Shown: one piece after another, positions 9,710 through 36,174 of the stretch | Layout of the letters: the number at the start of each line of letters is the position of its first letter | Numbering within the stretch: the first letter of the stretch is position 1 | Translations under genes and position numbers: made by a program | Origin: an uncultured Prevotellaceae bacterium | GTDB lineage: Bacteria > Bacteroidota > Bacteroidia > Bacteroidales > Bacteroidaceae | DNA length: 64,000 bases | Reading direction: 5' to 3' | Assembly (NCBI GenBank): GCA_947167455.1 | Contig: CAMVIB010000007.1 | Coordinates: 1 to 64,000, forward strand | Notes under the pieces: generated by a model | Told to the model about the DNA's origin: nothing | What the model saw: only the letters and a program-made list of their open reading frames with translations | Databases searched by the model: none

Positions 9710-11076
9710 AACCCCTGCACACATATCTCCATCAGCTCTTGGCGCTGCCATTGCTGCCACTGCTGCCACTGCTGACAGCCGCCTGCACAGCCGACGACAC
9801 TGACCTTCTGCCGCCTGACGGACAGCCTGTTGCCGTGGACTTCGATGTGTATATGGGCGGACAGGCCGACACACGAGCAGGCCTGGGCGGTGAGCTCACC
9901 ACGGCAAACCTCGCCGACTTCGGCGTCTATGCCTACAACACCGGCACCACGCCATGGGCCTCCATGGCAGGCTCCTTCCCTCCCGACTACATGTACAACC
10001 AGCATGTGCTGAAGAACAGCGACGGCACATGGGGCTACTCCCCGCTCAAGTATTGGCCCAACGGTTCCGGCACTGCCAACGACGACACCGGCCAGGGCGC
10101 GACACAAAGCCGGGTCTCTTTCTTCGCCTACGCGCCATTCGTAAACCTCAACATCACCGACCTCAGCCAGACCAACGACCCCACCGACGACCCCACCTCC
10201 GGCATAACGCACATCGATGCCTGCGGACATGCTCCCCTCATCACCTACAAACTCGCCTCCGACTATGCCTCGCAGGTCGATTTCCTATATGCTAACACCA
10301 ACACAGACCTCACCAAGCAGGCCGTCAACGGCAAGGTGCAGTTCGACTTCCGGCACGCACTCGCTGCCATCGACATCAAGGTGCAGCTCGTCTATAACCT
10401 CAAAGAAGCACCGTCCGCTGCCAACCCCGTCAAAACCAAGGTCTATATCTCCTCCGTGACTCTCGGCGGCTCCGCCATTCACGCCACTGGAAAGTTCTCA
10501 CTCGCCAATGCCACATGGTCAGAAACCTCAGGCAGTGCCGCCATCACCATCCCCACCGACCAGATAGCACCGGTCCTGCGAGGAGCAGCACCCGATGCCA
10601 CCATCGATGCCATCCGCCTGGCAGAACTCAACAACTGGGCCACACACTCCGGTGTCACCGAGACAGAGACCCACCTCACCAACAATGCCGTGGCAACGAT
10701 GATCATCCCCGCCGGCTCAACCACACTCACCCCGACACTCAACTACAACTTCGTAACCCTCGACGACGACCTCGCCCTCAGCACTTACACCACCGTCGAT
10801 GCCGTCACCGGCGACGTCACACACCGCTTCGCACGCATCAGCAACAGCGTCAGCGCATCATCCCCTGCCATCACCATCGAGGGCGGCAAGCGCTACACCC
10901 TCCTCTGCCGCATCGGCGTGGAGACGATGGAGTTCGGTGTCATCGGCGTGACAAGCATGGAGGTGGCTGTGACAGGAGTCGATGACTGGGACTTCCCCAT
11001 ACGCTTCTACCCCGGCATCGATAACTACAACATAGATGACCCTAAACCCAGGACCCTCAGTGAGGGCGATAACTAA
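9706..11076 (+). CDS. Fimbrillin family lipoprotein
   Basis: ATGA overlap with previous CDS; signal MKPLHTYLHQLLALPLLPLLPLLTAAC; DLTKQAVNGKVQFDFRHALAAIDIKV. Confidence 0.8.
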   Translation: MKPLHTYLHQLLALPLLPLLPLLTAACTADDTDLLPPDGQPVAVDFDVYMGGQADTRAGLGGELTTANLADFGVYAYNTGTTPWASMAGSFPPDYMYNQHVLKNSDGTWGYSPLKYWPNGSGTANDDTGQGATQSRVSFFAYAPFVNLNITDLSQTNDPTDDPTSGITHIDACGHAPLITYKLASDYASQVDFLYANTNTDLTKQAVNGKVQFDFRHALAAIDIKVQLVYNLKEAPSAANPVKTKVYISSVTLGGSAIHATGKFSLANATWSETSGSAAITIPTDQIAPVLRGAAPDATIDAIRLAELNNWATHSGVTETETHLTNNAVATMIIPAGSTTLTPTLNYNFVTLDDDLALSTYTTVDAVTGDVTHRFARISNSVSASSPAITIEGGKRYTLLCRIGVETMEFGVIGVTSMEVAVTGVDDWDFPIRFYPGIDNYNIDDPKPRTLSEGDN

Positions 11077-11089
11077 CCTTCCCGCCACA

Positions 11090-14000
11090 ATGAGCCACAC
11101 ATTCAGGTATAGCATATTTGTCGCAGTGGCAGCTCTTGCCACGCTCGCCTCGTGTAGCGATGGCGACGTCGCCTCGCTGTCACACGGGCAGACCGATGCC
11201 TACGACAGCGAAGCTCTCATCTTCGCACCATTCACCACCGAGCAGATTGACATTCAGCAGGCCCTCGGCAGCACACGCGCTGAGGCAGCGGCCGACTCTG
11301 CAATCCGGCGTGCCAACACCCCATCCTCACGCCCCTTTCAGGGCAGCAACACCAGCGGCCTCTACCTCCATCGCATGCCCCTCCCCTTCATGGAGATACA
11401 CCCCCGCACAGCCTCCGCACCAGTCCCCCAGTTGGAGGGGTTGCGTTATCATCGCAACCAGCAGCCCCTCCAGCCTCAGCAGCCCCCCCAACACCCTCAG
11501 CCCTCCTCACGCGCCCCCCTTTCCTCCCTCGCCTCCACCGACAACTTCCACTCGTCCATGACCATCTGGGGCTTTCTGAGCGCTCCAACCTCGGAGCACA
11601 ACGACGCCACGCTCTTCAACCATGTCCTCGTCAGCAAGGTTAACAACTGGCGAACGTCGCTCCACTGGCCATACGACGGCGACGGAGGCGGTACGCGCAC
11701 CATGCGCTTCTACGCCGTGGCGCCATCCATGGACGACCTGGAACTCACCATCACAAACTCACCTGACCACGACACGCAACCCACATTCACATACCGTGTG
11801 CCCGACGACATCGACGAGCAGAAGGACTTGCTCTACGGCGAGTCGGACGAGGTAGGAATTGCTGCTGGCCCAAAGGGAGCCACGAATCACACAGGCTATG
11901 AAGCCTTCTGGCAGGAGAAGAGCGAACCTGACGGTGAGTGGAGCCGAGAGGCCCACCTGGGGCAGGACGACAAGATTGTTGACCTGCGCTTCAGCCACAT
12001 ACTCACCGCCGTGCGCTTCGTGCAGGGCAACATACCCACGAATCTGCGCATAACCTCCATCACCCTCAACAGCATACGCAACCGTGGCACATACAACCCC
12101 GCCACAAGAGCATGGGCCATCGATGACGCCTCCACAGGCCACTACACCATCAATGTCGATTACACCCCCACCAACTACACCGAAGGTTCCAACGTATATA
12201 TCGATGGCGGCAACGTTCTCTTCCTCATGCCACACACATGCATCTCGGGAGCTGAACTCGAAGTGGCGCTGACCGATACCAACGGCACACCCGACAACAC
12301 CGCCGACGACCGCAACCACACCATCAAGGTGTCTCTCTCCGGCGACGATTGGAAGCCAGGCTACACCGTGACATACAAAGTGACCGTCGGCGAGCTGCGA
12401 GGCGACTACTATCTTGCCGTGCAGAAGGGCGGCGGAGTAGCTTCTTCTAACCTCGAGAACGATGTCAATGCTCACGGCAGCGACAGCGAGTCATTCAAAG
12501 TACACAGCTACCGCATGTTCCAGGACTACAGCAGCAGCGAGGGTGGCACCGCCACTGGACCCTCGCACCCCATCCACTGGAAGGTGAATGCCATATACAA
12601 AGCCAACAGCGACGGCACCCGCTCCACGACGGCATACACCAGTTCGCCCAGCTGGCTGAGTGTTCTCACAGGTTGGAACGTAGGTGACCATGTAGGTACT
12701 CCCATCGATGGTGGCTTAGACAAATCGGCAAGCTACACCTTCACAGCCGCCTCTGGCCAAACATATTCTCATACCACCATTCTCAATGCAAATTCGGAAC
12801 CTGCTCATAGTTGGGATTTGTCGATGTGTAAAGTCTCGGATGTCACAGATGGCTCCGTGTCATATAAGCTTTTTAAGAACGATGCAACAACACGCACCAC
12901 ATCCAACTGCTATATCATAAACCGCAAGCAAGGTTCTTATAGTTTTCCCATGGTATATGGCAACGGCATCACCGATGGCGTAGATATCGCTTCCGAAAAC
13001 ACTACCTGTTATGACCACCAGGGCGACATCATCAAAAAGCCGTGGATCCTCGACCAGCTGAACAAGACAAAAACCACTACCGTGACCGATGGCAACACTA
13101 CCACCGTGACCGAGACACAGACAAACTACGGTACTGATGCCTCTTCTTTTTCTGTATCTGGAAGCGACGTCAGAGCCGAGGTTCTTTGGCAGAGCGAGAC
13201 AGACTTAGTACACGATATATCGTATAATTTGAGTGGTGGTACAAATGCATCGATGATAGGCTTTTCTGCCGACAACGAGTGCATGGCTGAAGGCGCGCTC
13301 GTCAAGCCCGCCAACTGCATCATAGCCTTGAAAGGCAAGAAGAGAAGCAGGACACGGACTAAGACAACAGTGGTTTCCACAGTCTCAGAGAGCACCTCAG
13401 ACTCTGATGCTCCTACATCGACGTCGACGACGGGAGACCTTGATGATGGCACTTTCCCTCGCACACAAACCATAAAAGAAGTCACTATCTCCTCTGGTAC
13501 TAAAACCACCAAGACCACTACGGTCACGCAAAACGATTGGGGAAGTTGGTCTGTCGCTGCCGACTACGACTACCTATGGTTCTGGCACATCTGGATGACC
13601 GACGAGGTCTATCCCAATGCCTTCCGCAACCAGACAGGCAAGACTGTAGGCTCCACCGTGCTGTGCAACAGCGGCGGCACGGAACAGTACAAGATTATGC
13701 CAGTGAACCTCGGATGGGTGCCCACGAACGACAGCTACACCGTCTATGAGAACCGTGAGGCGTGGCTCGAGATTGTGCAGTGTGATGATGGCGGCACCAC
13801 CATCACAGGCAGCGCCGACCCCTGCTACGTGAAAATCTCGCAGCTCGCGCAGCAGACACCCGAGGAAGGCACGAGCCTTATGTTCAAATGGGGCTTCCCC
13901 TTCCCCTCCAACATTTCCCCCGCATGGACGCCCCTCGGCACATGGAGCACCACGAAAACCCTCTACGACCCCTGTCCCCCCGGCTACCAGCTGCCGCCTC

Positions 14001-14260
14001 CAGACCTATTCACCGGCGACGTCACCGCCTGCAATGGCGATGATAAAGGATGGTTCTTCTTCCCGCAGGCGGGAATCTCCACCGGGGCAGAGAAGCTGCG
14101 TCAGGGACTCTTCTACCTGCCCGTCGGCAACTACTGGACTGGCGACGCCACGCCGACGGCCATCACCCTCCTCGGCATCGATGGCACGCTGGGCACAAGC
14201 ACCTCGTATGGAGCTTCCACAGCCCTTCCCATTCGCCCGATAGGCGAATACCGGCAATAG
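11090..14260 (+). CDS. Large fimbrillin-like lipoprotein (candidate tip/adhesin) with C-terminal FISUMP-like module
   Basis: MSHTFRYSIFVAVAALATLASC lipobox; FSHILTAVRFVQGNIP; C-terminal TKTLYDPCPPGYQLPPPDLF...ALPIRPIGEYRQ. Confidence 0.75.
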   Translation: MSHTFRYSIFVAVAALATLASCSDGDVASLSHGQTDAYDSEALIFAPFTTEQIDIQQALGSTRAEAAADSAIRRANTPSSRPFQGSNTSGLYLHRMPLPFMEIHPRTASAPVPQLEGLRYHRNQQPLQPQQPPQHPQPSSRAPLSSLASTDNFHSSMTIWGFLSAPTSEHNDATLFNHVLVSKVNNWRTSLHWPYDGDGGGTRTMRFYAVAPSMDDLELTITNSPDHDTQPTFTYRVPDDIDEQKDLLYGESDEVGIAAGPKGATNHTGYEAFWQEKSEPDGEWSREAHLGQDDKIVDLRFSHILTAVRFVQGNIPTNLRITSITLNSIRNRGTYNPATRAWAIDDASTGHYTINVDYTPTNYTEGSNVYIDGGNVLFLMPHTCISGAELEVALTDTNGTPDNTADDRNHTIKVSLSGDDWKPGYTVTYKVTVGELRGDYYLAVQKGGGVASSNLENDVNAHGSDSESFKVHSYRMFQDYSSSEGGTATGPSHPIHWKVNAIYKANSDGTRSTTAYTSSPSWLSVLTGWNVGDHVGTPIDGGLDKSASYTFTAASGQTYSHTTILNANSEPAHSWDLSMCKVSDVTDGSVSYKLFKNDATTRTTSNCYIINRKQGSYSFPMVYGNGITDGVDIASENTTCYDHQGDIIKKPWILDQLNKTKTTTVTDGNTTTVTETQTNYGTDASSFSVSGSDVRAEVLWQSETDLVHDISYNLSGGTNASMIGFSADNECMAEGALVKPANCIIALKGKKRSRTRTKTTVVSTVSESTSDSDAPTSTSTTGDLDDGTFPRTQTIKEVTISSGTKTTKTTTVTQNDWGSWSVAADYDYLWFWHIWMTDEVYPNAFRNQTGKTVGSTVLCNSGGTEQYKIMPVNLGWVPTNDSYTVYENREAWLEIVQCDDGGTTITGSADPCYVKISQLAQQTPEEGTSLMFKWGFPFPSNISPAWTPLGTWSTTKTLYDPCPPGYQLPPPDLFTGDVTACNGDDKGWFFFPQAGISTGAEKLRQGLFYLPVGNYWTGDATPTAITLLGIDGTLGTSTSYGASTALPIRPIGEYRQ

Positions 14261-14420: not shown

Positions 14421-15716
14421 TTATAACCGCATATTGGCAAGCTTGGCAGCCATGGCATTGAGGGCTTCAAACTCCGCCTTGCCGAGATGGCGGGCGCGTG
14501 ACTGCCACGGCCATGGTGCCAGGAGCAGCAGGACGCCGCAGGCCACCTGGTCGCAATCGCGGCCCGGTGGTTTGTAATAGGGGCCGAAGCCCTCGCCGTC
14601 AAGGCGTATGTGCGGCAGTGCCTCGGCAAGGAGGGCGTCTCGGACAGCCTTCTCGCCCTCGCTGATGAAGGGCGAGATGAGCACCACGCCGCTGCGGGCG
14701 TGTGCCATGTATCGCTGTAGGAGCACGGCAAGCTCCTGCGCCACTATGCGACGGGAGATGCGCACGGCCATGCGACGCGGTGCCTCCACGAGGGCTCTGT
14801 TGCCCACGGCGGTGAAGGGGATGTCGGCGGCGGTGAGGGGGTATGTGCGGAAGAGGGTGGCGTTTTGGCGCTTCAGCAGCAGACGGCGGGGGTTGTCCTG
14901 CACATACGCCACCATGTGCTTCAGCTGATCGCGCCCCGACAGCGGCGTCTCGTGGTAGCCGGTGGACCACAGCTGCCCGTGCTTGCGCTCCTCCGTGGTG
15001 GGGCGGCGAGGGGGCTGCTGTGTCTGCTGTTGTTGTGTCTGCTGTCTTTGTGTCTGCGATATTATCGCAGACTCTCCAACGGCAGGCTCTCCAACGGCAG
15101 GCTCTCCAACGGCAGGCTCTCCACCGGCGGACTTTCCGGCGGCAGCCTCTCCACCGGCGGGCTCTCCACCGGCGGGCTCTCCACCGGCGGGCTTTCCAAC
15201 GGCGGGTTCTCCGGCGGCGGGCTCTCCAACGGCGGGCTCTCCGGCGGCGGGCTCTCCGGCGGCGGGCTTTCCAACGGCTGCCTCTCCAACGGCGGGCTTT
15301 CCGGCGGCGGGCTCTCCAACGGCGGGCTTTCCGCCTGCAGGCTCTCCGGCGAGGCGGCGGTAGGCCTTGTTGCAGCCTTGCTTGAAGCCGAGGATGATGC
15401 GGCCGAGGTGGGTGGTGCTCTCTGCTGTGATGAAGAGGATGAAGTGGATGTGGTCGGGCATGAGCTGCCAAGTGATGAGGTGGGCCTGGCGGTGGTAGTG
15501 CTCGATGGCGATGAGGCATGCCAGCACCTCATTGCCTAATGGCGATGGCACCACGGCGGGGCCTCCGGGGCTTCCTGTGGGGAGGGCAGGGTCGCCGGTG
15601 AGGGTGCCAAACAGGGGTCGCCGCCCCTCGGTGGTCATTGTGATGTGGTAGATGCGCCGCCCATAGTAATCGATGTCGTCAAGGCGGTGGGGGATGGAGG
15701 GGGGGATGGTCGGCAT
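14421..15716 (-). CDS. REP-associated tyrosine transposase-like (RAYT / Y1_Tnp superfamily) protein with internal pentapeptide-repeat insertion
   Basis: YGRRIYHITMTTEGRRPLFG, HLITWQLMPDHIHFILFI (HxH-type motif), GYHETPLSGRDQLKHMVAYVQDNPRRLLLKR; start ATG at 15716 chosen because upstream is tandem repeat. Confidence 0.75.
   Translation of the reverse strand: MPTIPPSIPHRLDDIDYYGRRIYHITMTTEGRRPLFGTLTGDPALPTGSPGGPAVVPSPLGNEVLACLIAIEHYHRQAHLITWQLMPDHIHFILFITAESTTHLGRIILGFKQGCNKAYRRLAGEPAGGKPAVGEPAAGKPAVGEAAVGKPAAGEPAAGEPAVGEPAAGEPAVGKPAGGEPAGGEPAGGEAAAGKSAGGEPAVGEPAVGEPAVGESAIISQTQRQQTQQQQTQQPPRRPTTEERKHGQLWSTGYHETPLSGRDQLKHMVAYVQDNPRRLLLKRQNATLFRTYPLTAADIPFTAVGNRALVEAPRRMAVRISRRIVAQELAVLLQRYMAHARSGVVLISPFISEGEKAVRDALLAEALPHIRLDGEGFGPYYKPPGRDCDQVACGVLLLLAPWPWQSRARHLGKAEFEALNAMAAKLANMRL
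15052..15072. repeat. REP-like palindrome copy b (GTCTGCGATATTATCGCAGAC)
   Basis: Perfect 21-nt palindrome inside the RAYT ORF, followed by CTCTCCAACGGC. Confidence 0.9.
15072..15356. repeat. 15-bp minisatellite, about 19 units (consensus CTCTCCAACGGCGGG)
   Basis: Direct reading in 15-nt steps; encodes (GEPAx)n in the minus-strand RAYT frame. Confidence 0.95.
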
Positions 15717-15753
15717 GGCGGGGTGGGAGGGGATGGGGGTGAGGTTGAGGGGG

Positions 15754-15825
15754 CTGGCGGTGTGGTGGCTGCGATGGTTGGCTGTGTGGTGGCTGCGATG
15801 GCTGGCGGTGTGGTGGCTGCGATGG
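15754..15825. repeat. 24-bp tandem repeat, 3 units (CTGGCGGTGTGGTGGCTGCGATGG)
   Basis: Direct reading; each unit contains the left half of the REP-like palindrome (GGCTGCGATGG). Confidence 0.9.
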
Positions 15826-15835
15826 TATCGCAGCC
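15815..15835. repeat. REP-like palindrome copy c (GGCTGCGATGGTATCGCAGCC)
   Basis: 21-nt palindrome followed by TCTCCAACAGCGG. Confidence 0.9.
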
Positions 15836-15855
15836 TCTCCAACAGCGGTTGGTGG

Positions 15856-15876
15856 AGCGGCGATATTATCGCCGCT
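15856..15876. repeat. REP-like palindrome copy d (AGCGGCGATATTATCGCCGCT)
   Basis: Perfect 21-nt palindrome. Confidence 0.9.
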
Positions 15877-15880
15877 GTGT

Positions 15881-16059
15881 TGGGTGCTGAGTCGGCAGCC
15901 GGGGTGCTGAGTCGGCAGCCGGGGTGCTGAGTTGGCGGCCGGGGTGCTGAGTTGGCGGCCGGGGTGCTGAGTTGGCGGCCGGGGTGCTGAGTTGGCAGCC
16001 GGGGTGCTGAGTTGGCAGCCGGGGTGCTGAGTTGGCGGCCGGGGCAGTGCTTGGCAGCC
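15881..16059. repeat. 20-bp minisatellite, 8 units plus a degenerate ninth (GGGGTGCTGAGTTGGCGGCC)
   Basis: Units at 15881, 15901, 15921, 15941, 15961, 15981, 16001, 16021. Confidence 0.95.
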
Positions 16060-16066
16060 GGGGGGG

Positions 16067-17725
16067 TCACCACTGGTCTGTCCAGCGCAGGGGGTCGAAG
16101 AGGACGGTGATGCTCTCGGGGCCGCGGACGATGTCGTCGCCAGGGGCGAGCTCGTCAACGAAGGCATAGCAGTATATGAAGCCGCTCTCCCACTTTATGT
16201 TCATGCCCACGAGGTTCACCGTGACGCGCGCTGTCTGCTCTCCGCATGAGACGGTGATGGTGACGTTGGGCACGTTGTCATCTTTGAGATGTTGCGGCAC
16301 AGCCATGATGATGTTCGAGGGGGCGAAGTTGTAGTGGTAGGTGTCGCTTTTCTTCTCGGCTTCTGCGAGGAAGGCGGCGTATGTGGTGGCGCGCTTTGTC
16401 TTCTCGTCGCCAGCGGCGAGTTCGGAGCCGTCGAGGTCGTAGGTGGTGCCTTCTTGCGCCTCGATGCTCTCGTACATGAAGTCGGTGTTTATCTTCTTGC
16501 CGTTGTCTGCGTGGCCGGGGTGGTAGAACCAGTAGGGGTTCTCTATGTAGCCATCCACTTTTGCTGAACCAAGGGCGCCAGTGACGGAGGAGGTGATGGC
16601 GGTGCCGCCGGTGTTGCTCCATGAGGGGGTGAAGATGGCGTCGGTGTTGATGTTGTTGAAGGCCAGCTCCACGGTCTTGGCTCCATCACCCCATGTCGTC
16701 ACCTCCTTTATCATGGGTTGGCCAGCGACGTTCTGTATGGTCTGTGTGTTGCCGTCGGCATCGGTGTATGTGGCTGATGTCTGGCCGTTGGCACCATTGA
16801 AGGTGAAGGCTTCACCGCCCGTGGCGAGTACGAACTCGCCTGTTAGTGGTGTGCGCTCGTAGGTAATCTTGGGGGTGTAGCTGACGTGGGAGTAGAGACG
16901 CACCTGTGCCAGGGCGTGACGGAAGCGCAGTGGCACACGTGCCGGCTCTCGCTTGGCATCGTCGCCATTCTCGTCGGTGAGGGGGTAGCTGGCTTTTGTC
17001 TTGTCGGTGACGAGGTCGCTGATGAGAAAATCTACCTGGTTGCGGGCATACTCCTCCATGTTGAAGCGTATGCTGCCCATGCCTGCTCCGGCGGCAATGA
17101 CTGCGGGGTCGATGTAGATGCCTGCTGCTGCGGCGGTGGTGGCTGTGGCGGTCCAGGGGTAGTATGCCCAGAAGGACATCTTGCCGCCGTCGTTAGGCCA
17201 ATAGCGCTTGTCGTCGTATGACAGGGTGTTGGTCATCTGTCCCTTGGCGGCAGTGGTGTTGGGGGTGCCGATGGTGAGGGGGACGTTGTAGAACGTGTTG
17301 GCTGTGAAGTGGGCGGCGAGCCGAGTGTTCTTGGCCTGATTGTACTCGTCCTTGCTGGCGAGGAAAGCCAGCGAGGCGAACTCCGTCGTTGCCAGCGTGG
17401 CGCGATCGGCGAAGGATGTGTTGCACAGCGTCTGCAGGGCATTCCAGCTGTTGGTGCCGGTGTAGTAGCCGAAGAGTCCCACGCGGGGGGCGCCTGTGGT
17501 GCCGTTGGTTGCGGGCAGCCATGTCTCGCTCTTGTTGACGAGGGTGGCGTCGGCGCGTGTCTCGGCGTCGGCATCATCGGCCACGGCGCTGAACTCGATA
17601 GCTGTGGCCAGGTCGGTTGTGGGCTGTGTGCCAGGGGTGAGGGTGTGGTTGTCGGTGCAGGCGGTGGCTGCCATGGCGGTTATGGCGAGCGCTGCACAGA
17701 GGTGTGTGGGGGTGTTGCTGTTCAT
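16067..17725 (-). CDS. Fimbrillin family lipoprotein
   Basis: Start MNSNTPTHLCAALAITAMAATAC at 17725; VPLRFRHALAQVRLYSHVSY; upstream ORF extension is REP-derived. Confidence 0.75.
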   Translation of the reverse strand: MNSNTPTHLCAALAITAMAATACTDNHTLTPGTQPTTDLATAIEFSAVADDADAETRADATLVNKSETWLPATNGTTGAPRVGLFGYYTGTNSWNALQTLCNTSFADRATLATTEFASLAFLASKDEYNQAKNTRLAAHFTANTFYNVPLTIGTPNTTAAKGQMTNTLSYDDKRYWPNDGGKMSFWAYYPWTATATTAAAAGIYIDPAVIAAGAGMGSIRFNMEEYARNQVDFLISDLVTDKTKASYPLTDENGDDAKREPARVPLRFRHALAQVRLYSHVSYTPKITYERTPLTGEFVLATGGEAFTFNGANGQTSATYTDADGNTQTIQNVAGQPMIKEVTTWGDGAKTVELAFNNINTDAIFTPSWSNTGGTAITSSVTGALGSAKVDGYIENPYWFYHPGHADNGKKINTDFMYESIEAQEGTTYDLDGSELAAGDEKTKRATTYAAFLAEAEKKSDTYHYNFAPSNIIMAVPQHLKDDNVPNVTITVSCGEQTARVTVNLVGMNIKWESGFIYCYAFVDELAPGDDIVRGPESITVLFDPLRWTDQW

Positions 17726-17745
17726 TGGTGAGGGGGTGTTTTTGT

Positions 17746-17766
17746 GTCTGCGATGGTATCGCAGAC
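17746..17766. repeat. REP-like palindrome copy e (GTCTGCGATGGTATCGCAGAC)
   Basis: Intergenic between giant ORF and fimbrillin gene; same CTCTCCAACGGC flank as copy b. Confidence 0.9.
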
Positions 17767-17799
17767 TCTCCAACGGCGTGGCGGCGGGGCGGTGTCTTG

Positions 17800-20700
17800 T
17801 CACCTCCCCACTGTCACCTGTCGGCCATTGACGATGTACATGCCGGGTGGCAGGTTGCGTCGCCAGGTGCCGTTGAGCACGGACTCGCGGGAGCGGACGA
17901 GGCGTCCGGCGAGGTCATAGACGCCGGTGATGTGGGAGGTGTCGGTGGTGTCGGCGGCATCGCCGTCGGGGTCTGAGGGCGGCAGGTCGTCGTCGTCGAA
18001 GCGCATGGGGATGTAGTGGCGTGCGGGTGCCGGCGAGGGTGATGTAGTGTCGTAGTCGAAGTATGCTTTGTTGGCAAGGACGTAGCTCTCCTTGCGCTGT
18101 TCGGCGGTGGCGACGCCGGTGCCGTGGGCGTTCGCGTTGGGGTACTGCTCGCGCGCCCAGTTGTAGTTGCGATAGACGCCTACACGCTTGGTGTAGTCGT
18201 GGGCGAAGGATGAAACGGGCGTGAAGCTGTCGCCGGAGCCGGTGCCTTGCATGGGCAGTCCGAAGACCATGATGCGGTGACCGGAGGCAATGGCGCCGAG
18301 GTCCTGTTCGAGGTACTTGCCGGAGAGCTTGCCGCCGACGGCGTCGTAGCCGGAGATGGCATCGTTGGGCCGGCTGTCGGGGATGAAGAGTTCGACGTAG
18401 TACTTGTTCGAGCCGCTGCCGTGGGAGACGTCCTTTGCGTGGTCAGTGGCATCGTTGCCGACGATGGTGGGTCTTGTGCTGCGCACGATGACGGGCCACT
18501 CGGCGGGAATGTACTGTCCGTTGCCCATGTCGGTGAGGGTGCTCAATGACTTCATGTTCATAGTCTCGCCGGGTGTGGCGGGGCCGGTGTAGGTGAAGGC
18601 GTTGGCTGTGGTCTGCGTCAGTCGGCTGTCGAAGGGCACGTAGAGCGATGCGTAGTAGTTGTCGTCGTAGTTGCCCTCCACCTGTTCGAGGTCCTCGTCC
18701 TTCACGCCGCCCTTGAAGAGCTCCAGGCGCAGCGGCATGTCGTGGCGGAAGGGGTCGGCGGTGGCTCGGTCCTGCACGGGTTTGAGCATCCACTTGGTGT
18801 CCTGGATGCCGTGGTAGCCGTGCGAGGCGTGGTCGCCGATTTCCTTCATCTCGTTGTCGGTGTGCATGGTGATGCGGTAGCGGTGGTGTGCGTCGATACA
18901 GAGGTAGTTGGTCTGTATGTTCTTGCCCACGTCGGTGCGCCATGTCGAAGACTTGTCGCTGTCATACTCCGCGTCGAGGCTGCGTATGGTGACTGCCGTG
19001 CCGCCGATGTCGTCGATGCGGAACTTGGTGTTGTCGGTGGCAGCGGGCGTCTCGGTCGGGGATATCATGCGTGTGTAGCCATTGCCGCTCTCGGCTGCCG
19101 AGGGTCCTTCGACGTCGGGGTAGCCTGCAACGGTGAGGCCCTGTGTGGCGAAAGTCCATCGCTGGTAGGGGTCGCCCTCGACGGGGTTGAAGTGGAAGAT
19201 GGTGGCGGCGTCGTACTCGGCGGCGGGGATGTCGATGTTGCCTGCCATGGCTGGGTGGTCCAGCAGGCTGCGGTCGGCGTCGTTGGAGGCGCTAATCTTG
19301 TCCTGCAGCTCGGCGAAGGTGCTGATGGTGCGGTTGGCTTCGTCGGTCTCGTAGAAGTGGAGCCAGCGGCCAGTGCCGGCGTGGGTGGCATTCTCTGTGC
19401 AGGTCTGCTCGGTGAGGTGGCGGTAGCCGCTGATGAAGCGCGGGCCGGTGATGCCCTTCAAGCCGGAGCCGTCGCCCTTGAGGTCGTTGCCGTCGGCGTC
19501 GAGTGCCTCGCGCGAGAATGCCTCGATGCGGTAGTAGCCCTGCTCGAGCGGCTGCAGGTTGTTGCTGCAGAAGCTGCCCTTGAGCACGTCGGAGGCTTCG
19601 TCGATGTCGGTTGCGACATAGCCGCTGACGCCCAGACCGGTGTTGATGGTGCCGTCGGCGTTGGCGTAGTAGAGGTTGTCGCGTTCGGGGTCATAGATGA
19701 TCCATTGGCCGTTGTTGTCGAGGAACTTGCCGCTATAGACGAGCTTTCGGGCATTGTCGAGCAGGGCGAAGGGCGGTGTCTGTCCGTAGAGGCTGCCGCC
19801 TGTGACATACTGCTCGAGCTGTGTCTGGTAGGCCTGTGCCGTGCTTGTTGCGGCAATCTCGGGCTTGAGGCCACCCACGTAGCCCGAGCGCTGGAAGTAT
19901 GGCAGTAACTGTTCGGGCGTCGTCTCCAGCTTCCAGTTGGCCTCGTCGTTGTTGCGTGCCGTGGCGGCATCCATGAGCGTGAGCACCAGCTCGTGGTTTT
20001 TGTGCTCGTCGATGGTGTGTGTGACGTAGAAGCCGTTGAAGTTGGCATCCTTGGGGTTGATGTAGTCGGCCGTGGGGTGCATGAGGAAAGTGCCGTCGGT
20101 GTTGCTGTTGGTGGTCATCATCTCATAGACGGCGTTGTTGGCGCCGTCGGTGTCGCGCCCGGTGGTGCGGTGCTGGTGCACCACGCGTCCCTCATAAAAG
20201 CTTATGCCATGGTCAGTGGCGTTGGTGTAGGTGAGCTTCTGTCCGTTGGCTTTGAGGTTCTGTTTTGTGAGGTCGCCGAGTTGGAATGGCGAGTATCCCT
20301 CGTCGCTGAACCAGTTCTGTGTGCCGTTGGTGACCCACTCGCGCGTTGGCAGCCAGTCGGGTGTCGTGACGACGATGTTTCTCCACCCCGTGCCGTTGAC
20401 GGTGGCGTAGCGGTTGTGGAGCACGAAGCCGTAGGGGTCGCCCACGGGAGCCCAGAGGTAGTTGTTGGTGTAGTGTACCGAGCGGTCCAGGCGTGCGCCG
20501 ATACCGTCCTTGTAGGAGAAGTTCATCAGTCCTGCCATGGGGTGGTCGAGTGTCATGGTGTGGCCTTCGTCGTCGGTGACATCCACTGTCTCGGTGTGTT
20601 TGTTGAGCATGGTGTACCACGCCGTGGTGCGTCGTCCGATGTCAGAGAATCGGAACTGCTGCTCGTCCACGTCATATACGACTGCGATGGTGACCTTGCG

Positions 20701-23700
20701 GTCCTGGAACCATGGTTCCACCTTCGTCACCTTGGTGTCGTCGTGAGCCTCGCGGTCATTGGTGCCGTCGCTGTTGTCGTCGGTGTCCTTCACCTGCTTC
20801 CAGACGTAGTAGTAGCGCTTGCCGGCAGCGTCGAGCAGGTAGGCATTTGTATTGCTGTCGTGTAGTGCCTTCGAGTCGGTGTAGTCCTCCACGCCGTTGT
20901 CGGCGGCCGTCTCGCCCTGGGTTATCTTCACCCTCTCCTCAACCTTCATCTGGTAGAACTGGTATTTGCAGAACTGCCGGCGCATATACCATGGCACGGT
21001 GAGTGCGTTGCCCACGCCCACGCGTGTCACGGAATAGTCCTCGATGGGGTATGAGACGATGTCGCGCAGCGAGGTTGCCTTGACGGACGCTCCTCCGGCG
21101 TTCGTGCGCAGGGTGTTGTAGTGGGCTATCTCGTCGATGTGCTTCTGGAGTGTGGCGAGCTGTTCGGTGGTGAGGCCGTTGGGGTTGTCGGCGCCGTCTA
21201 TGCCCGTGACAGAACTCAGGCCGGAGACGTTGTACTGTTGGTGCTGGTGTCCTATGATGAGGTGATAGACGAGCACCGAGGCATAGCTGTTGAGCGCCAC
21301 GAGGTAGAAGGGGTGTGCTCCGTTGGCGTTCATGGCCTGTCCTGTGGGGTCCACTGTCTCTCCTCCTGTGAGGTATAGGAACTGTCGTGTCCACACGAGG
21401 TCCTGTCCGTTGCGTGCGCGGTCGAAGGTGGCGTAGCTGACGATGGTTCCCACCTCGCGGTTGGTGTCGTCGCTGAGCAGTGCCAGGTATGGCGTGCCGT
21501 CGCTACCCACCTTCAGGGTCCAGTGTGTGGCGGTGGTGGCGGTGGTTGACGTGGTGAGTGGCGACGAGCCTGTGAGTGTCGTTGCTGCGCCGTCGGTCTG
21601 GTAGAGGGCGTAGTTCTTGAGCTCGAAGTTGTAGGGGTCGCCCACGAAGGCCCACTTCTGGTCACTGGCGCGGTTGGGGTCGTTGTTGGTGCCGTCGTCG
21701 TAGCGCTGGCGCTCGTCGCCGAAGGCGCGTCCGGCTCCTGTGGCGCGGTCGTCGCCGGTGGTCTTGACGTTGAGGTAGCCTCGCACATCGACGTTGTTGG
21801 CCGTGCCGCCCTGCTCGATGGTCTGGTATGTGGTCTTTGTCTTGTAGCCCACGATGAGTCCGTCCTCGTTGAGGATGGGGCTGTCGTAGTCGGGCACCTC
21901 CACGGGGATTGTCACTGTGCTGCCTGAGACGCGGTATGTCTCCTTCCAGCCGTAGTAGCTGTTCACCCAGGCGTACTCGTCGCGTGCGGCGGCCATCTGG
22001 TCGGTGAAGAAGGCTGCGAAGTTCACCCCCGCTGTGCCGTCCACGGTGACGTTGTCCGAGACGGTGTATGTGAGGTAGATGTCCACGTGGCGTCGCTGGT
22101 TGGCCTCGCCGGTGGTCTTGGCGGCCGTCCAGTGGCCGTCGAGGAAGTTCTGTGTTACCTCTGTGGAGGCTGTGATCTCGTCGGCGAAGGCCGATGCCTT
22201 AGTGCCGCTGACGTTGCATGTGAGGTATGCTCGGTATGTGCATCCGAAGCGTTTCACCTCGGCGGGGATCACCTTGTCGAAGGTGATGCCTCGGGCGAGG
22301 TCGGTGTAGCGCACCTCGATCTGCGACGTCTCGTGCATGAGCTGTCCGTCGGTGTTATAGACGCGTATGTGTGCGTCGAAGCAGTCGTTTTCGATCTCGT
22401 CGTGGTCGTCATCTACGGTGCGCACGTATGCCGACTTTATGTCGCTGGCAGAAGTGTATCGGTCGTAGTTCTGGTTGGTGTTGGGTTCGACGTAGAGCGT
22501 GTGCTGCCTCTGTATGAACCACGCGTAGTCGCCCAATCGGGTGAAGTCGTAGCGGTAGGCTCCGTCGCCGTTCTGCCCCATGTTGGTGCGCTCGTCGAGC
22601 ATGTAGATGAAACTGTAGTCGTTGGTGGCGTTCCAGTGATTGGCATCGTAGGTAGTGGCATCGAGGTCGGTGGTCTCGTCGCTCTTGGTGGTGCCGTCGT
22701 CGGTGCTGTAGCCCGTGCTCTTCTTGTCGTCGATGCGCAGGAAGATGTCATAGACGGGGTTGCCGTCGGCATCGGTGACGGGTCGCACGGTCTCGACGCC
22801 GTTGCTCTGCTGGCGGTAGTAGGTGCGGCTCTGCTGGAAGGCGAAGTCCTCGGCCTCGGCGTAGGCCCCCATCTTGAGGTATTGCGTGCCGGAGGCGTAC
22901 TTGCCTATTGCCGAGGTGGAGGCTGCCATGGTGAGCCAGCCCTCGTTCTCGGTGTTGTCGGTGAGCAGAGCATCCTCGTAGATACGGCGGTTCACGACCT
23001 TGAGCGAGTATGGGTCGCCCACCAATGCCCAGTGGTAGCCCTTGGAGCGTATGGGCGTGTTGCCGTTGTACTTGCTGACGACCTGCTTCTGCGTCGATTC
23101 AGAGGATGCAACTTTGCTCAACGCGCCGTTGACGTCGTAGTAGAGCCAGCGGTTGGCCACGCGAATGTCGAACCACTTGGGGGCGGTGAGCTCGCCGCTG
23201 GACTGGTCGTAGGTGGAGAAGATGCCGTCCTGCGGCGAGTAGTTGACGTCGAGCTTGAAGACGTAGTTGTCGGTGTAGCCTGAGAGGCACGTATGCTCTT
23301 TCACAGCTGTGTTGCCGTGACTTACGGCGCTTGAGGGGTCGAGGGTCAGCGTGAGGGTGTTGGAACTCAGGTTGTCAGCACCGTTGCGGAAGTGCAGGTT
23401 GTTGTATGTGGCAAATTCGCGCTTGAGGTGTGCGGGCATGTCGGTGAGCGTCTCGCCCACGCCGAAGTACTCCGTCAGCTCGTCGTGTACCACGGGGTCG
23501 CTGAGGGTGTTGCCTTGCGAGTCGGTGGCGTTGTTGGCGTGTACATCTATATATACGCGTGCGGGCTGCACGAGGCGTATGGCGCAGCCGGCCTCGTTGG
23601 CGGTGTGGTAGCCTATGTACTTGCTCTTCTCCATGACGGTGGCGTTGCCGGCGTCGTACTTCAGGTCCACCTGGTACTTCCATGTGAGGTCTTGGCCCTC

Positions 23701-26700
23701 CACCTCCTCGGTGTAGCTCTTGTCGTAGCCGTGGTGTAGGTAGTAATATACGCCTCTGTAGGAGAGCTGCGTCTCCTCATCGACGTAGCGTAGTGCAAAC
23801 TCCTTCGTGTCGCGCTCGTCGTCGCCCGTGGCGGGACACATCACCTCCCAGTGGAACTTGGTGTAGAGTCGGTGGGTCCTGTTGGGGTTGGGGTAGTATT
23901 CCAGCTCTCCCGTCTGCTTGTTGCGGCGTGCCAGGTACATGCGGTCGTCGAGGGTTTCGTCGTTCTGTGGGTGCAGCTGCACGCAGTCGTGTACGAACTG
24001 CCACTGTGTGCATCCCGGGTGTATGCCGCTGTTGTCGGGGGTGTTGGCGCCGCCGTCATCTACTGCCGTCACGTTGCCGGGCTTGATGGTGTGCTGTATG
24101 ATGCGGCTGAGGTTCTGCCCCAGCAGGTCGGGCCTTGCGCAGAACACCTGCAGGTTGTAGGGGTCGCCCACGAAGTACCACTTCAGGTTCTCGGGCTGCG
24201 AGTACATACGGTCTGGGTCGGTGTGGTAGTGGTGGGTGAGGTTGTCGCCGGTGGCGTGGCCTGTGTAGTCCTTGAAGACATCCTTGGCGGCATCGGCGCG
24301 GTAGTAGGCGTGGGCCGTGTAGTCGTGCCTTACGTTGCCGTAGGTCCATGAGGCTCCGGGGAAGTCCATGAAATAGACGTGGTCGTTCTCGCGGATCATG
24401 CGCTCCAGCTCGGCCTCCTGTTCTTCCTCGGTGGCGAAGAGCGTGGTGTTGGTAGGTTCATTGCCGGGGGTGATGAACATGTCGGTCGTCACCTCGTAGC
24501 CCACATATACGCTTTGCATCCAACGCTCGGAGCCGCCGATGCGCTTGGCTTTCTCAAGGTAGCGGCCCTGAGCCTCGAGCTCCGAGGTGTTGGGGTTGGT
24601 GCTGATGTCATTGACGTTGAGGCGGGAGGCGTCCCACACTGTGTATTCCGTGCCTGGTGTCACAAACTGGTCGGTGTAGAACTTGTAGTTGCAGAACTGT
24701 CGGCGTGCCTGTGTGGGGAACTTGTCGCCGCCGTTGTCTATGACGTCGCCCTCGCAGAACATGCGGTCCTCCTGGGCGTAATAGACGGCTTTCGTGCCAG
24801 TGCCCTTGGTGCCATCGGCGTCCTGGACGCAGTCGTCCATGCGGCGTATGGTGAGCACCACGTCCTGGTAGGCCATTGGCTCGTAGGGTAGGGTGCGTAT
24901 GGCGTTGGTGCGGTCGGTGGTGCGCAGTGCGAGCTGCACATGGCCGGTGCCGGAAGCGGGCGTCGTCATCTGCCAGTAGAGCTGGTCGGGGTCGTCGGTG
25001 TCGGCGAGGCGGTAGGCGCTGTTGCTGACGAGGGCGAAGGTGGCCTCACCCGGATACTTGGTGCTGCCCACGGCGAGGCCCCACGAGCCGCGCTTGGCTA
25101 TGGCGGCCTCGGTGGTGCTGGCTTCCGTTGAGGTGGGCGTGGCGGCGATGGCGGCCAGCTCGGTGCGTGTCATGACGGGGTATGTGTGGCTCTCGTCGCT
25201 GATGCTGTCGCGGTAGGCGGTGACGGTGGCAGCGTCGGGGGCCAGGTGATAGGCTCCTTCCGACGTCGCCACGATGCCGGCGCGTGCCTCGAAATTGACG
25301 ACGTTGAGGTTGTAGGGGTCGCCCGTGAAGGCCCATAGCCAGCGGCCCTCGCGGAACTCCTCGTTCTCGCCGTCCTTGAAGTACTCGGCCACGCGGTTGT
25401 AGCTCCACTGCTTGTAGTTGCGCGAGGGGGCCGTGGTGTCGTCGTCGAGCGTGCGCCCGTTGTCGCCCTTCTGGTCGGCATAGAGCTGGTAGCCGTTGTT
25501 CATCCAAGCCACGGTGCCATCGTCCTCGTGGCGCAGGAAGTACTGCTTGCCCACGGTGGTGTCGTCGCTCGAGTTGGTGAACGCCGCGTCGGTGTCCAAG
25601 ACCATGAACTGCCACGATGCCTTCATCAGCGGCGTGGTGCCGTCGTCCTCGGTGCCGTAGAGGCTGTGGTTGGCCTGGTGCGTGGCTACGTCGGCGGTGA
25701 TCTGCTCCTCCGTGCTCCAGCGGAAGTTGGTCTCTTCCGTGCCGGTGAGGGCAGCAATCTCCGAGTTCGTCATGGGTTGGTACTTGAAGTAGATGTCGCA
25801 GACATCGTCCTCGCCTATCTCCGGGTAGATGTCGTAGGTCGCGCTGTTCGAGTCATAGACGCGCTCCGTCATGGCCTCATTGCTGTAGAACTGGGCGTTG
25901 TTCAGGGCTTCCAGTTCCGTGCGGGTCTTGAAGATACCAGCCGTAGTGGCTCCACTGGTGAGGTACTCCTGCTCGTACTTGCTATAGAGGCGCGCTATCT
26001 GGTCTTCCAACACCAGGGGTGCCAAGAAGTCGTGTTCCAAGATGACATCCCATGTCCACTCGCGCTTCTCCGTGTTGTAGGCATGATAGTGATACTTGCG
26101 GGAAACAGGTGCTTTGGTGAACTCTAAGCAGTAAATGGCTGTGCTGCCTATACCGTTGAACATGAGGGCGGGGAAATTTTGCTTTGATTCATCGCCGTCG
26201 TCACCAGTCATCCTGATGTTTGTGGCTCTAAGACCGTTGGGATAATTGGTTGATGTGGTGGCAGAAGGAGTGGTATAGGCTAAGGGAATCATGCCAAATA
26301 TCTGAAGATTGCCACCTGAATAGGTACTGCTCGCGTACTCTGTGCCGGTGCCAAACAGTGCCGACCATCTGCGCAGGGGGTATCCGTCCTTGAAATCGCC
26401 TTCTTCATTATCGGTTCCCACAGCGTTCAGAAGCATGAAGGTCTGGAAACGGAGTCCCGAGGTGCCGTATGTAGCCATCTCGATATTGTTGCCTGAGTTG
26501 ATGGAGAGGCATTTGTCAATCTCAGAAGCGTTGACGAGACGTATGGCGTAGGGGTCGTTGCCCTCCATGCGCCATAGGAATTTCTTGTTGGACACACCAT
26601 GCTTGGCGGTGCTGACATCTTGTTGCTGCATCTTGTTGCCGCTGTCGAAGCCTAAGACTTTACCATGTTTTGTACCCCAGTCAGACTGCATGGCACTCAT

Positions 26701-29700
26701 GTTGTACCAAGTGTTACCGCTGAGGTCAAGACCTTTAGCATTGGTGAAATTGACACGCATCTCATTGCTGTCATCTATGTCGGAGGCAATCATATAGGGA
26801 CTGGTCTCCGGGTCGTAGGTGTAGCGCACCCACACCTCGCCGATGCGCTCTGCGGCGGCCTGTGCGGCAGTCGTGATGGTGCTGGGTACGAGCGACGACT
26901 CATCGACGGTCCATTTGCTGCCGTCCCACGTGGCCTTGGTGTAGTAGCGGTAGTCGGTAGCGGTGAGCAGAGGCGACTGAACGTATTCCGGCAGTCTGAA
27001 CTCTGTCTTATTGTATTCTGAGGCACGCACGGAGTTAGCCCATACGGCTTCCTGTCCGTCGTTGGTGATGACATGGAACACGATGTTGGGGCGGTAGCCG
27101 AAGCGGATGTACTGACCATTGCCACGGCTGGTGGGTTCGCTTTTCTTGTCTGTACGCGCTTTGTAGTTAAGTCTGTCTTTCCAGGCATACAGCGATCCTG
27201 ATTCAGATATGAACATGTCGTCGTGCCCCGTGACAAAGAGTTTCAGCGGGTCGTTATTATTGGCACCCTTCAGTATCATGAATGTCTGGTAGGGGTAGTC
27301 GGTATCATCTGGCTCCACCATCTTCGTCGCTATCTTGTGGGTCATGTCATCATTGGTGATGGTGTTGGCCGTTGAGGCTTCTTGCGATGCGAACACCTTG
27401 GTGCTGCTATACTCGGGATTGACGAACTGCACCTCGTAGGGGTCGTTGCCTTTCAGCAGCCACAGCGAACGCTTACGCCAACGGTCACTCTCTCTATACA
27501 TATCATCACCATTGGAACGCAGGGTTACCTGGTCGGAAGATGTATTGACTTGTTGCCATATATGTCCGCCACCCAGCGACAATACATAACTCACCTGTCC
27601 CGAGAGGTCGAGCGGCGCGTCGGTGATGTAATTGTTGACCAGTCCGCCAAAATATGTCACTGCCTTACGCGACTTGTCGTAGTCGTAACGCACATAGACA
27701 ACACTTTTGCCGTCCTCCACATCGAGATTGTTCAACGTAGTGGTGGGGTTGACGGCGGTGTATTTGCCGCCGCTCTCACTGACACCTGCATAGTAGGAGT
27801 AGGTATCATCGGCCTGCGACATCATGGGCGAGCGCATATAGTACGGCATGCTGGGCTTGCCTGATGCAAGTGCCAGCGAGTCGCCGGTGAGTGCTATCTG
27901 TCCGCTGAGGGTGACAATTTTGTAGCGTATGTTCGTCGGCGTGATGTCGGCGGTGAACGTCAGTTTGGTAGCGTCACTGCTCAGTGCTGAACTGAGGTTT
28001 ATGGCAGAGGCATAACCTGACTCCAGCGTCGTCGTTGCCGGCCACGAAGTGCCGTTGAGGAAGTAGTAGTTGGCGGCATCCTGCGCGCCAGCCACTGCCA
28101 GGGCATAGGCATTGGGCGTCCCTTTGTGTGAGAGCAGCACGAATCGCGGGTATGTGGCCGAGGCACTAGCCGTAACGGAGCCTCCGGCCAGCGTCGATGT
28201 TCCCATCGGATTTGTCAGCCCGTCGGCGTTAGTGTAGAGTTTAACGGCATAGGGGTCGGGCGTGTCGCCAGACGAGTGTAGCAGTCGCCACTGCCAGGCG
28301 GCGTTGGCGGCGTTTTTCGTGCCGGTGGTGATGCCGCCATTGTATTGTACGTCTGTGCCGTTGAGTTGCGTCGTCAGCCATGTACCTTGCAGCAGACCCT
28401 GCGTGTCGGCCTCGCGGTTGTAGTCGTAGTGTACATAGACGGTCTTGTCGGTGATGCCCGTCGCTTCGCTGTACGATGTCGTGATTTCATTCTCCAGCGT
28501 CACTTCCTTGTAGTATTTGAAGTTGGTGGCTAACGGACTACAGAACTGTGTGGGGATAGATGGAGCACCGGTGCTGATGGTCTGGTAGCGCAGGGCTTCA
28601 CGACCTTCGTTGTCCACAATGACATAGGTGTAGATGTCTGGACGCAGCAGCCAGGTGGTCTGGCTGTGTTCTTTGTCGTCAGCAGGTCTTGCATCGGCTG
28701 GTGTAACTAATGTACCAAAGTCGCTGACCACATGGCTGTGGTCGAAGCGTGGCATGAGGCGCATGTTGCCGTTCACGTCCTGCACAGCCATGAAGGTGGC
28801 ATTGGTGATGTGGAGGGTTCTTGAGTCGTAGTCGGGAATTAAAGTGGTGAACTTCTCTGAAGGTGTGCCGCCGAGCGAAAGCCTGCCATTGCCGGCTGGC
28901 GTAGTGGTCACCATGTATTGGTGGTTCTCTGTGCCAGCAGCCGAGGCATCGGTGGTGAAGTAGGCAGAAGTGTATTGTTTATTGTAAATCTGTATGTTGT
29001 AAGGGTCGAAGCCGCTCTTGCCGTCGGTGTGGTAGGCGGCGTTGGTGGCCTCCTTGCTGATAACTTGATGGTTCTCGTCTTCCACGTCATACTCATAGCC
29101 CATCTCGGTGTCGATGTCGAAGTTGGGCTTCAGATACCAGTAAAGTTCGGGATGGTCATTCTCACCGAGAGAAGACACATCGTTAGCATCGATGGTGGCA
29201 GTGGCATCCTCAAATGCGATGTCCTTACCGTTGTCTGTCTTGGCCAAATGGCCATCCTGACGGATAAGGAAAGGATAGTTCACGCTTGTTGCTGCTTCGG
29301 TGGCCGCACCCGTGTAAGCATCGGCATACTCGGGCTTCACGTCGTAGCTGACGTAGAGGTCCACGAGTGCTCCTCCGTTGTACTTCTCGGGGTAGGCGGC
29401 CAGCGAGGAGGCCGTGCCGGCGAGGTCGCCCTCAGCCAGCGTGTACTTGTGGTAGCCGGGCATCTTGGGGGCTGTGCGGTAGCCGTAGAACCGGTACTGC
29501 GACACCATGGGGCTGTCGTACTTGCGCAGGAACTGCTTTACGCTTTCATACTTCGTGGTCTCGCTGTACTTGGCAATGGGGTGGCGCATGACTTCCCAGC
29601 CGTGGTTGTCGGTGAGCACCAGCACGGCATCAATCTCAGTGGGGTTGAGCTTAAACGTGCCATCACCCATGGAGATGGTCTGATACCAGTGGTTGCGGTA

Positions 29701-35910: not shown

Positions 35911-35970
35911 TTCATTGTGGGGTTGGTATCTGCGCGCACGTATGCTTACGCGTGCGCGTACACTTGAGTG

Positions 35971-36002
35971 CAAAACTATAAAGTTTTGGCCACATGACCA
36001 AA
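35971..36002 (-). promoter_or_regulatory. Bacteroidetes promoter for the giant ORF (TTTG-N20-TAGTTTTG)
   Basis: Minus strand TTTGGTCATGTGGCCAAAACTTTATAGTTTTG; -33 at 36002-35999, -7 at 35978-35971, ATG at 35910. Confidence 0.75.
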
Positions 36003-36174
36003 CTTTTACGGCTTTCTGTACTTTTTTTAACACAAAATAATGACAAAGCTGTGCTTTTTGATGCCTATGGGTCCGAAAAGCATGGTCTGTGTGTGCCTAA
36101 CGTGGGTGGTTACGCAGGCGTCGGCGCTGCTCTTGGCTTTATGCTTCATGCCTGATGATGCACGTAACATCCCC

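Follow-up and report, generated by a model that had tools for sequence, protein, structure and literature searches.

The window analysed here, a 64,000-nucleotide stretch of contig CAMVIB010000007.1 from an uncultured Prevotellaceae bacterium (a gut bacterium of the order Bacteroidales), holds a family of 21-nt palindromes around a gene for a predicted Y1/HUH protein of the kind known as repetitive extragenic palindrome (REP)-associated tyrosine transposases (RAYTs). We consider it probable (about 0.78) that gene and palindromes are a Bacteroidales-type REP/RAYT pair, in which a Y1 HUH single-strand nuclease, a disordered linker and a DprA-like domain are joined in one protein. A preliminary description of this stretch had proposed such a pair, and the below-cut-off match to NCBIfam model NF047646, the predicted fold and the pairing of palindrome classes with genes among relatives support the proposal; mobilisation of the palindromes would follow by analogy. 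That description did not include the in-frame position of one palindrome within the gene, the tandem arrays of half-REPs, the DprA-like domain or the published precedent for REPs inside genes (PMC6006769). The most important of these omissions is that both the 15052 palindrome and an 18-copy array are embedded in the reading frame of the gene.

The window class of REPs consists of four palindromes and one diverged copy (Table 1), as had been described. The core pattern gave 11 strand-wise matches in the window at up to three mismatches, against 2.2 expected. For the palindrome with its tail (CTCTCCAAC) the chance expectation is none, and the core with tail (TGCGATNNTATCGCAGNCTCTCCAAC) gave three exact matches and one with three mismatches, with none in 100 shuffles. 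The shared tail noted earlier could be refined to an 8-nt foot, which reads GTTGGAGA on the minus strand for the copies at 15052, 15815 and 17746. The two remaining copies, 15856 and 11439, have the opposite orientation and carry their feet on the plus strand (GTTGGTGG and GTTGGAGG, respectively), so that a GTT foot is present in all five. The 15815 and 15856 copies form an inverted doublet with the feet facing inward. Folded as single-stranded DNA (ssDNA), four copies give hairpins of 9 bp with a 3-nt loop (z −5.6 to −6.6), and the 11439 copy folds weakly (z −2.8). The reported proximity to the Y1/RAYT-type open reading frame (ORF), within about 6.4 kb, also holds, and the 15052 copy is even inside it. 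The gene thus has the doublet upstream and the in-gene copy as REP neighbours, and no REP copy lies immediately downstream. The foot and hairpin of the 17746 copy are also present in a genome of the same genus (L305).

The full ORF spans 14421–16073 on the minus strand. The ATG at 15716 is the probable start because the family alignment starts at this point and what precedes it consists of repeats. The HUH motif PDHIH and the catalytic tyrosine in Y271..DNPRR sit at family-invariant alignment positions; in 59 homologues, neither PDHxH nor the tyrosine with its NPxR motif varies. The protein matched NF047646 (REP_Tyr_transpos) with an E value of 4.8e-12 and 46 bits, under the curated cut-off of 80. 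Its match to Pfam Y1_Tnp was also below the cut-off, and a Pfam Y1 family search of its own genome gave no match, since that model fits the group poorly; protein and profile searches did find homologues. The predicted structure is confident except at the N-terminus and in the linker (about residues 124–240), and the predicted fold matches ISDra2, IS608, the E. coli TnpAREP–REP complex (4er8) and DprA. Homologues in the same genome match the window protein at about 37–51% in matched segments. The fourth of these (L345, contig C20) has repeats that precede the HUH motif, and its linker lacks a palindrome. The window gene has a close relative, L046 (G020:C170), whose coding sequence is broken up into two frames that overlap, and the REP is in or near this overlap.

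The 15052 copy is read in frame as part of the disordered linker, which separates the HUH motif from the catalytic tyrosine. We examined this arrangement in 98 genes from the same genus that have both motifs. A linker palindrome was found in 61 of them, against 2.1 expected from dinucleotide shuffles of the same linkers; the HUH parts had one (1.7 expected) and the C-terminal parts six (3.9 expected). Tandem arrays were similarly concentrated, being present in 54 of the 98 linkers, no HUH parts and four C-terminal parts. The array periods are multiples of three in 52 of 54 cases, and 13 array units have 9 nt or more in common with the REP. Across 42 linker 37-mers, 13 of 15 base pairs have changes on both sides, and covariation was observed in 105 cells as compared to 35.5 after shuffling, a signal that was lost when partners were slid. 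Could the linker hairpins and arrays simply be GC-rich coding repeats that are prone to slippage and have no connection with the protein? Arrays do occur in genes without a palindrome, and a linker predicted to be disordered would tolerate insertions. We hold this to be very improbable, however, given the excess of palindromes over shuffled linkers, the retention of hairpin length, foot and pairing across many sequences, and the presence of the same units, with one foot, away from the gene.

An in-frame REP inside the gene is not new in itself, because it is known in TnpAREP subclass 2.4, which occurs in Bacteroidetes and has double-foot REPs in frame inside tnpAREP genes, between HUH and Y (PMC6006769). 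The 61 homologues share this placement. The present family differs from subclass 2.4 in its HUH motif (DHIH in the window and PDHxH in the family, against NH[IFV]H), in the W motif (LWS rather than WQ), in the tyrosine motif (YVQDNP rather than YIxNNP) and in the feet (GTY..RAC rather than GT[AG]G..C[TC]AC). The proteins are also longer, at about 350–430 residues with an extra C-terminal domain, compared to a listed length of 194 (PMC6006769).

The pairing of the palindromes with the RAYT-like protein is supported by the classes of its relatives, through their own palindromes, dispersal, co-occurrence with the gene and co-variation with the HUH half. Every class of homologue is accompanied by a palindrome of its own, found within and near the gene. 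The stem classes sort by gene group into GCGAC, GCGTT, GCTGT, GCAAC and GCGGC, and the window class is GCGAT. Sister genes have REP copies both upstream and downstream. The GCAAC class is mostly located at its own genes. The GTTGCGAC class is dispersed, with up to 21 copies in one genome; control patterns for this class had no match in any of 139 genomes. The C19 class has four one-footed dispersed copies in the window's own genome. Exactly one GTY foot was present in 20 of 21 dispersed sister-class copies examined, and both feet were present in 23 of 50 in-gene copies. Co-occurrence with the RAYT, which the preliminary description had suggested checking, was borne out for sister classes. Copies elsewhere were found in 9 of 11 genomes with the cognate gene versus 22 of 128 without it (p 2e-5), and for a second class in 5 of 8 versus 7 of 131 (p 1e-4), in tests that ignore shared ancestry.

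These distributions also bear on whether the palindromes are two-fold symmetric binding sites on double-stranded DNA, that is, operators for the same protein or another regulator and not substrates for mobilisation. Palindromes of 21 nt, an odd length, and symmetric covariation would fit such a dyad equally well, and the 17746 copy precedes a likely ATG by about 20 nt, with others in the same genome 49–53 nt upstream of ATGs. A symmetric operator does not account for the single asymmetric foot on one side of the dispersed copies, which fits an ssDNA unit of foot and hairpin. Many copies lie within coding sequences, three of them in the signal-peptide region of unrelated genes, and the linked protein is a Y1 nuclease rather than a repressor. 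We therefore regard the operator explanation as unlikely. In the three unrelated genes (L286:1033, L299:1067 and L299:7985), the REP is in frame in the N-terminal signal-peptide region and encodes the peptide VLFVATxSQL. REPs at signal-peptide regions and near start codons illustrate routes by which these units may become part of proteins and of regulation.

Palindromes of the CTGCGATTCCATCGCAG type, found on many contigs, were kept out of the window class since they are without the GTTGGAGA foot; some have another GTY foot. They include L065, L069, L088 and similar loci and, in the window's own genome, C13:22550. Several of those on contigs of the genus adjoin a GTTTCTT-type stretch instead of the window foot. 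They are possibly another REP class.

The elements might also be the ends of a decaying IS200-like insertion sequence (IS), with a hairpin–gene–hairpin layout and the in-gene copy as a relic. Single-strand transposases use subterminal hairpins, and the same hairpin stands upstream, in the linker and downstream in seven homologues (L044, L045, L051, L053, L095, L100 and L116). The protein likewise shares the HUH/Y1 fold and DH[x]H motif of the IS200/IS605 family (IS608, ISDra2). It differs from that family in having an NP motif after the tyrosine. The hairpins disperse without the gene, and no near-identical multicopy unit was seen: paralogues within one genome are diverged, unlike the near-identical copies of a mobile IS. 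The in-gene copy, moreover, is maintained with compensatory changes and is not decaying. A decaying IS is thus quite improbable.

In TnpAREP, the hairpin and a 5′ tetranucleotide are both used, the cut is made at CT or CA, and strand transfer is tyrosine-linked (PMC8266576). The window system resembles the TnpAREP/RAYT REPtrons of E. coli, Stenotrophomonas and Marinomonas (PMC8266576) in its Y1 HUH fold and catalytic residues, in the single catalytic tyrosine followed by an NP motif, in the low-copy, diverged genes flanked by REPs, and in hairpins that have a conserved 5′ foot and form an inverted doublet. It differs in the foot, which is GTY-N5 (GTTGGAGA in the window) and not GTAG or GTGG, in the DprA-like C-terminal domain, in the in-frame copy within the gene, in the tandem arrays of half-REPs and in the small number of dispersed copies.

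If it acts like E. coli TnpAREP and IS608, the protein would bind its cognate hairpin as ssDNA, partly through helix αC, and the 8-nt GTY-N5 foot would select the cut site. The tyrosine would then cut, and the unit of foot plus hairpin would be copied or moved at a low rate, often to a place near its own gene, with one REP copy kept in frame in the linker. Slippage, or aberrant cutting and joining beside the hairpin, may have expanded half-REPs into arrays of 3n nt.

How RAYTs recognise REPs is a question that this family can be used to ask. Hairpin class is associated with the HUH half of the protein: among pairs of genes whose C-terminal halves are at least 80% identical, the HUH identity was 0.85 when the hairpin class was the same (59 pairs) and 0.53 when it differed (23 pairs). 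L099 and L167, for instance, are 83% identical overall and carry GCGAC and GCTGT, respectively; their differences are concentrated at the HUH motif, helix αC and the linker. In helix αC, LSR..RGFKT goes with GCGAC or GTGAC, LGM..RGFKQ with GCGTT, and LGK..LGFKQ with GCTGT or GCCGT. These rules held for 29/29 genes of the set from which they were drawn up and for 14/14 held-out proteins. The linker hairpin could be the junction of a natural specificity cassette, in which genes trade the HUH half along with its matching REP and retain the DprA-like half; specificity would then switch by domain shuffling, and helix αC would be part of a readable recognition code. We put this forward tentatively, at less than even odds. 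Close relatives offer many natural protein–hairpin pairs and apparent module swaps, and a recognition code can therefore be proposed and tested.

The C-terminal domain (144 residues) is predicted to have a DprA Rossmann-like fold. Modelled alone, it reached a predicted local distance difference test (pLDDT) score of 95, and its only strong structural matches were DprA proteins and ShosA (TM score 0.64–0.71). The GLAxGID motif of DprA is replaced by PxISxGE. Many relatives carry the fused DprA-like half. In an order-wide sample, 18 of 295 genomes matched the family profile, not all over its full length. In a phylum-wide sample, the only further matches were to open frames of about 190–266 residues and extended over no more than the HUH part, so that in this sampling the fusion seems confined to Bacteroidales. 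Most named homologues belong to metagenome-assembled genomes (MAGs) of ruminant-gut Prevotellaceae and other Bacteroidales, and to Prevotella communis. A literature search of incomplete coverage returned no paper joining DprA with a tyrosine transposase or a transposase. The domain may bind ssDNA or recombination proteins; an HUH nuclease with a DprA-like fold suggests a link between REP processing and the proteins of single-stranded DNA recombination.

Several observations weigh against these interpretations. The window class comprises five copies, all within 6.4 kb, and one possible copy elsewhere. In a search of its own genome, a 2.5-Mb draft that is 77% complete, the palindrome with the exact tail was found in the window and nowhere else; one further plausible copy lies on contig C29, and matches to foot plus half-stem (GTTGGAGAGNCTGC) without mismatch are confined to the window. 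With copies so few and local, mobility of the window class is putative, and such a local, low-copy class is thin evidence by itself. The window protein occupies a long branch of the tree. No other protein in the set pairs LGRIILGFKQ with GCGAT as it does, and this pairing runs counter to the LGFKQ–GCTGT trend. Two further helix rules, KGFK and GGFK, were dropped after being correct for 0/9 and 2/4 held-out proteins. Independent pairs on the C-terminal tree never ran in the opposite direction, each test being too small for significance. The linker REP adjoins the HUH region in the DNA, and one recombination tract could swap both without any recognition. Besides the neglect of ancestry in the co-occurrence tests, the homologue loci were only partly sampled and the genomes are mostly draft MAGs. 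For the C-terminal domain, HHalign against 14 Bacteroidales DprA proteins gave a plausible register at a probability of 3.9, and no Pfam match (PF02481) was found among the proteins scanned. Sequence-level homology to DprA was dropped at this low probability, and the likeness is claimed for the fold only.

Table 1. Positions in the window of the RAYT-like gene, its REP copies and the associated arrays
Feature	Position	Strand	Details
RAYT-like Y1 transposase gene (predicted)	14421..15716	-	likely start ATG 15716; 431 aa
Protein domains (predicted)			HUH, aa ~10-123; disordered linker, ~124-240; catalytic-Tyr helix, Y271; DprA-like C-terminal domain, 288-431
Full 21-mers	15052-15072, 15815-15835, 15856-15876, 17746-17766, 11439-11459		
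Core CTGCGATNNTATCGCAG	15054, 15817, 17748		exact
Core variant CGGCGATATTATCGCCG	15858		
Diverged core	11441		3 mismatches
REP copy inside gene	15052..15080	-	foot GTTGGAGA + hairpin GTCTGCGATAATATCGCAGAC; in frame, linker
REP copy upstream of gene	15815..15843	-	foot GTTGGAGA + GGCTGCGATACCATCGCAGCC
REP copy, opposite orientation	15848..15876	+	foot GTTGGTGG + AGCGGCGATATTATCGCCGCT; doublet partner of 15815
REP copy upstream of Mfa-like (fimbrillin-like) gene	17746..17774	-	~20 nt upstream of likely ATG
Diverged REP copy	11431..11459	+	foot GTTGGAGG + GGTTGCGTTATCATCGCAACC; in frame in ORF 11036-14260; weak hairpin
18-copy, 15-bp array	15072..15347	-	unit is 5′ half of REP (GTTGGAGAGYCTGCC); in-frame coding, GEPAV-type repeats
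2.6-copy, 15-bp array	15019..15057	-	from 3′ half of REP 15052
3-copy, 24-bp array	15755..15826	-	contains 3′ half of REP 15815

Two further features lie close to these elements. A nine-copy, 20-bp tandem repeat (GGGTGCTGAGTTGGCAGCCG) occupies positions 15882–16063, in an open frame, and lies close to the REP doublet and the transposase gene on their upstream side. An ORF of 6077 amino acids extends over 17800–36033, and its N-terminal part contains a stretch that resembles a RhuM-family fragment.

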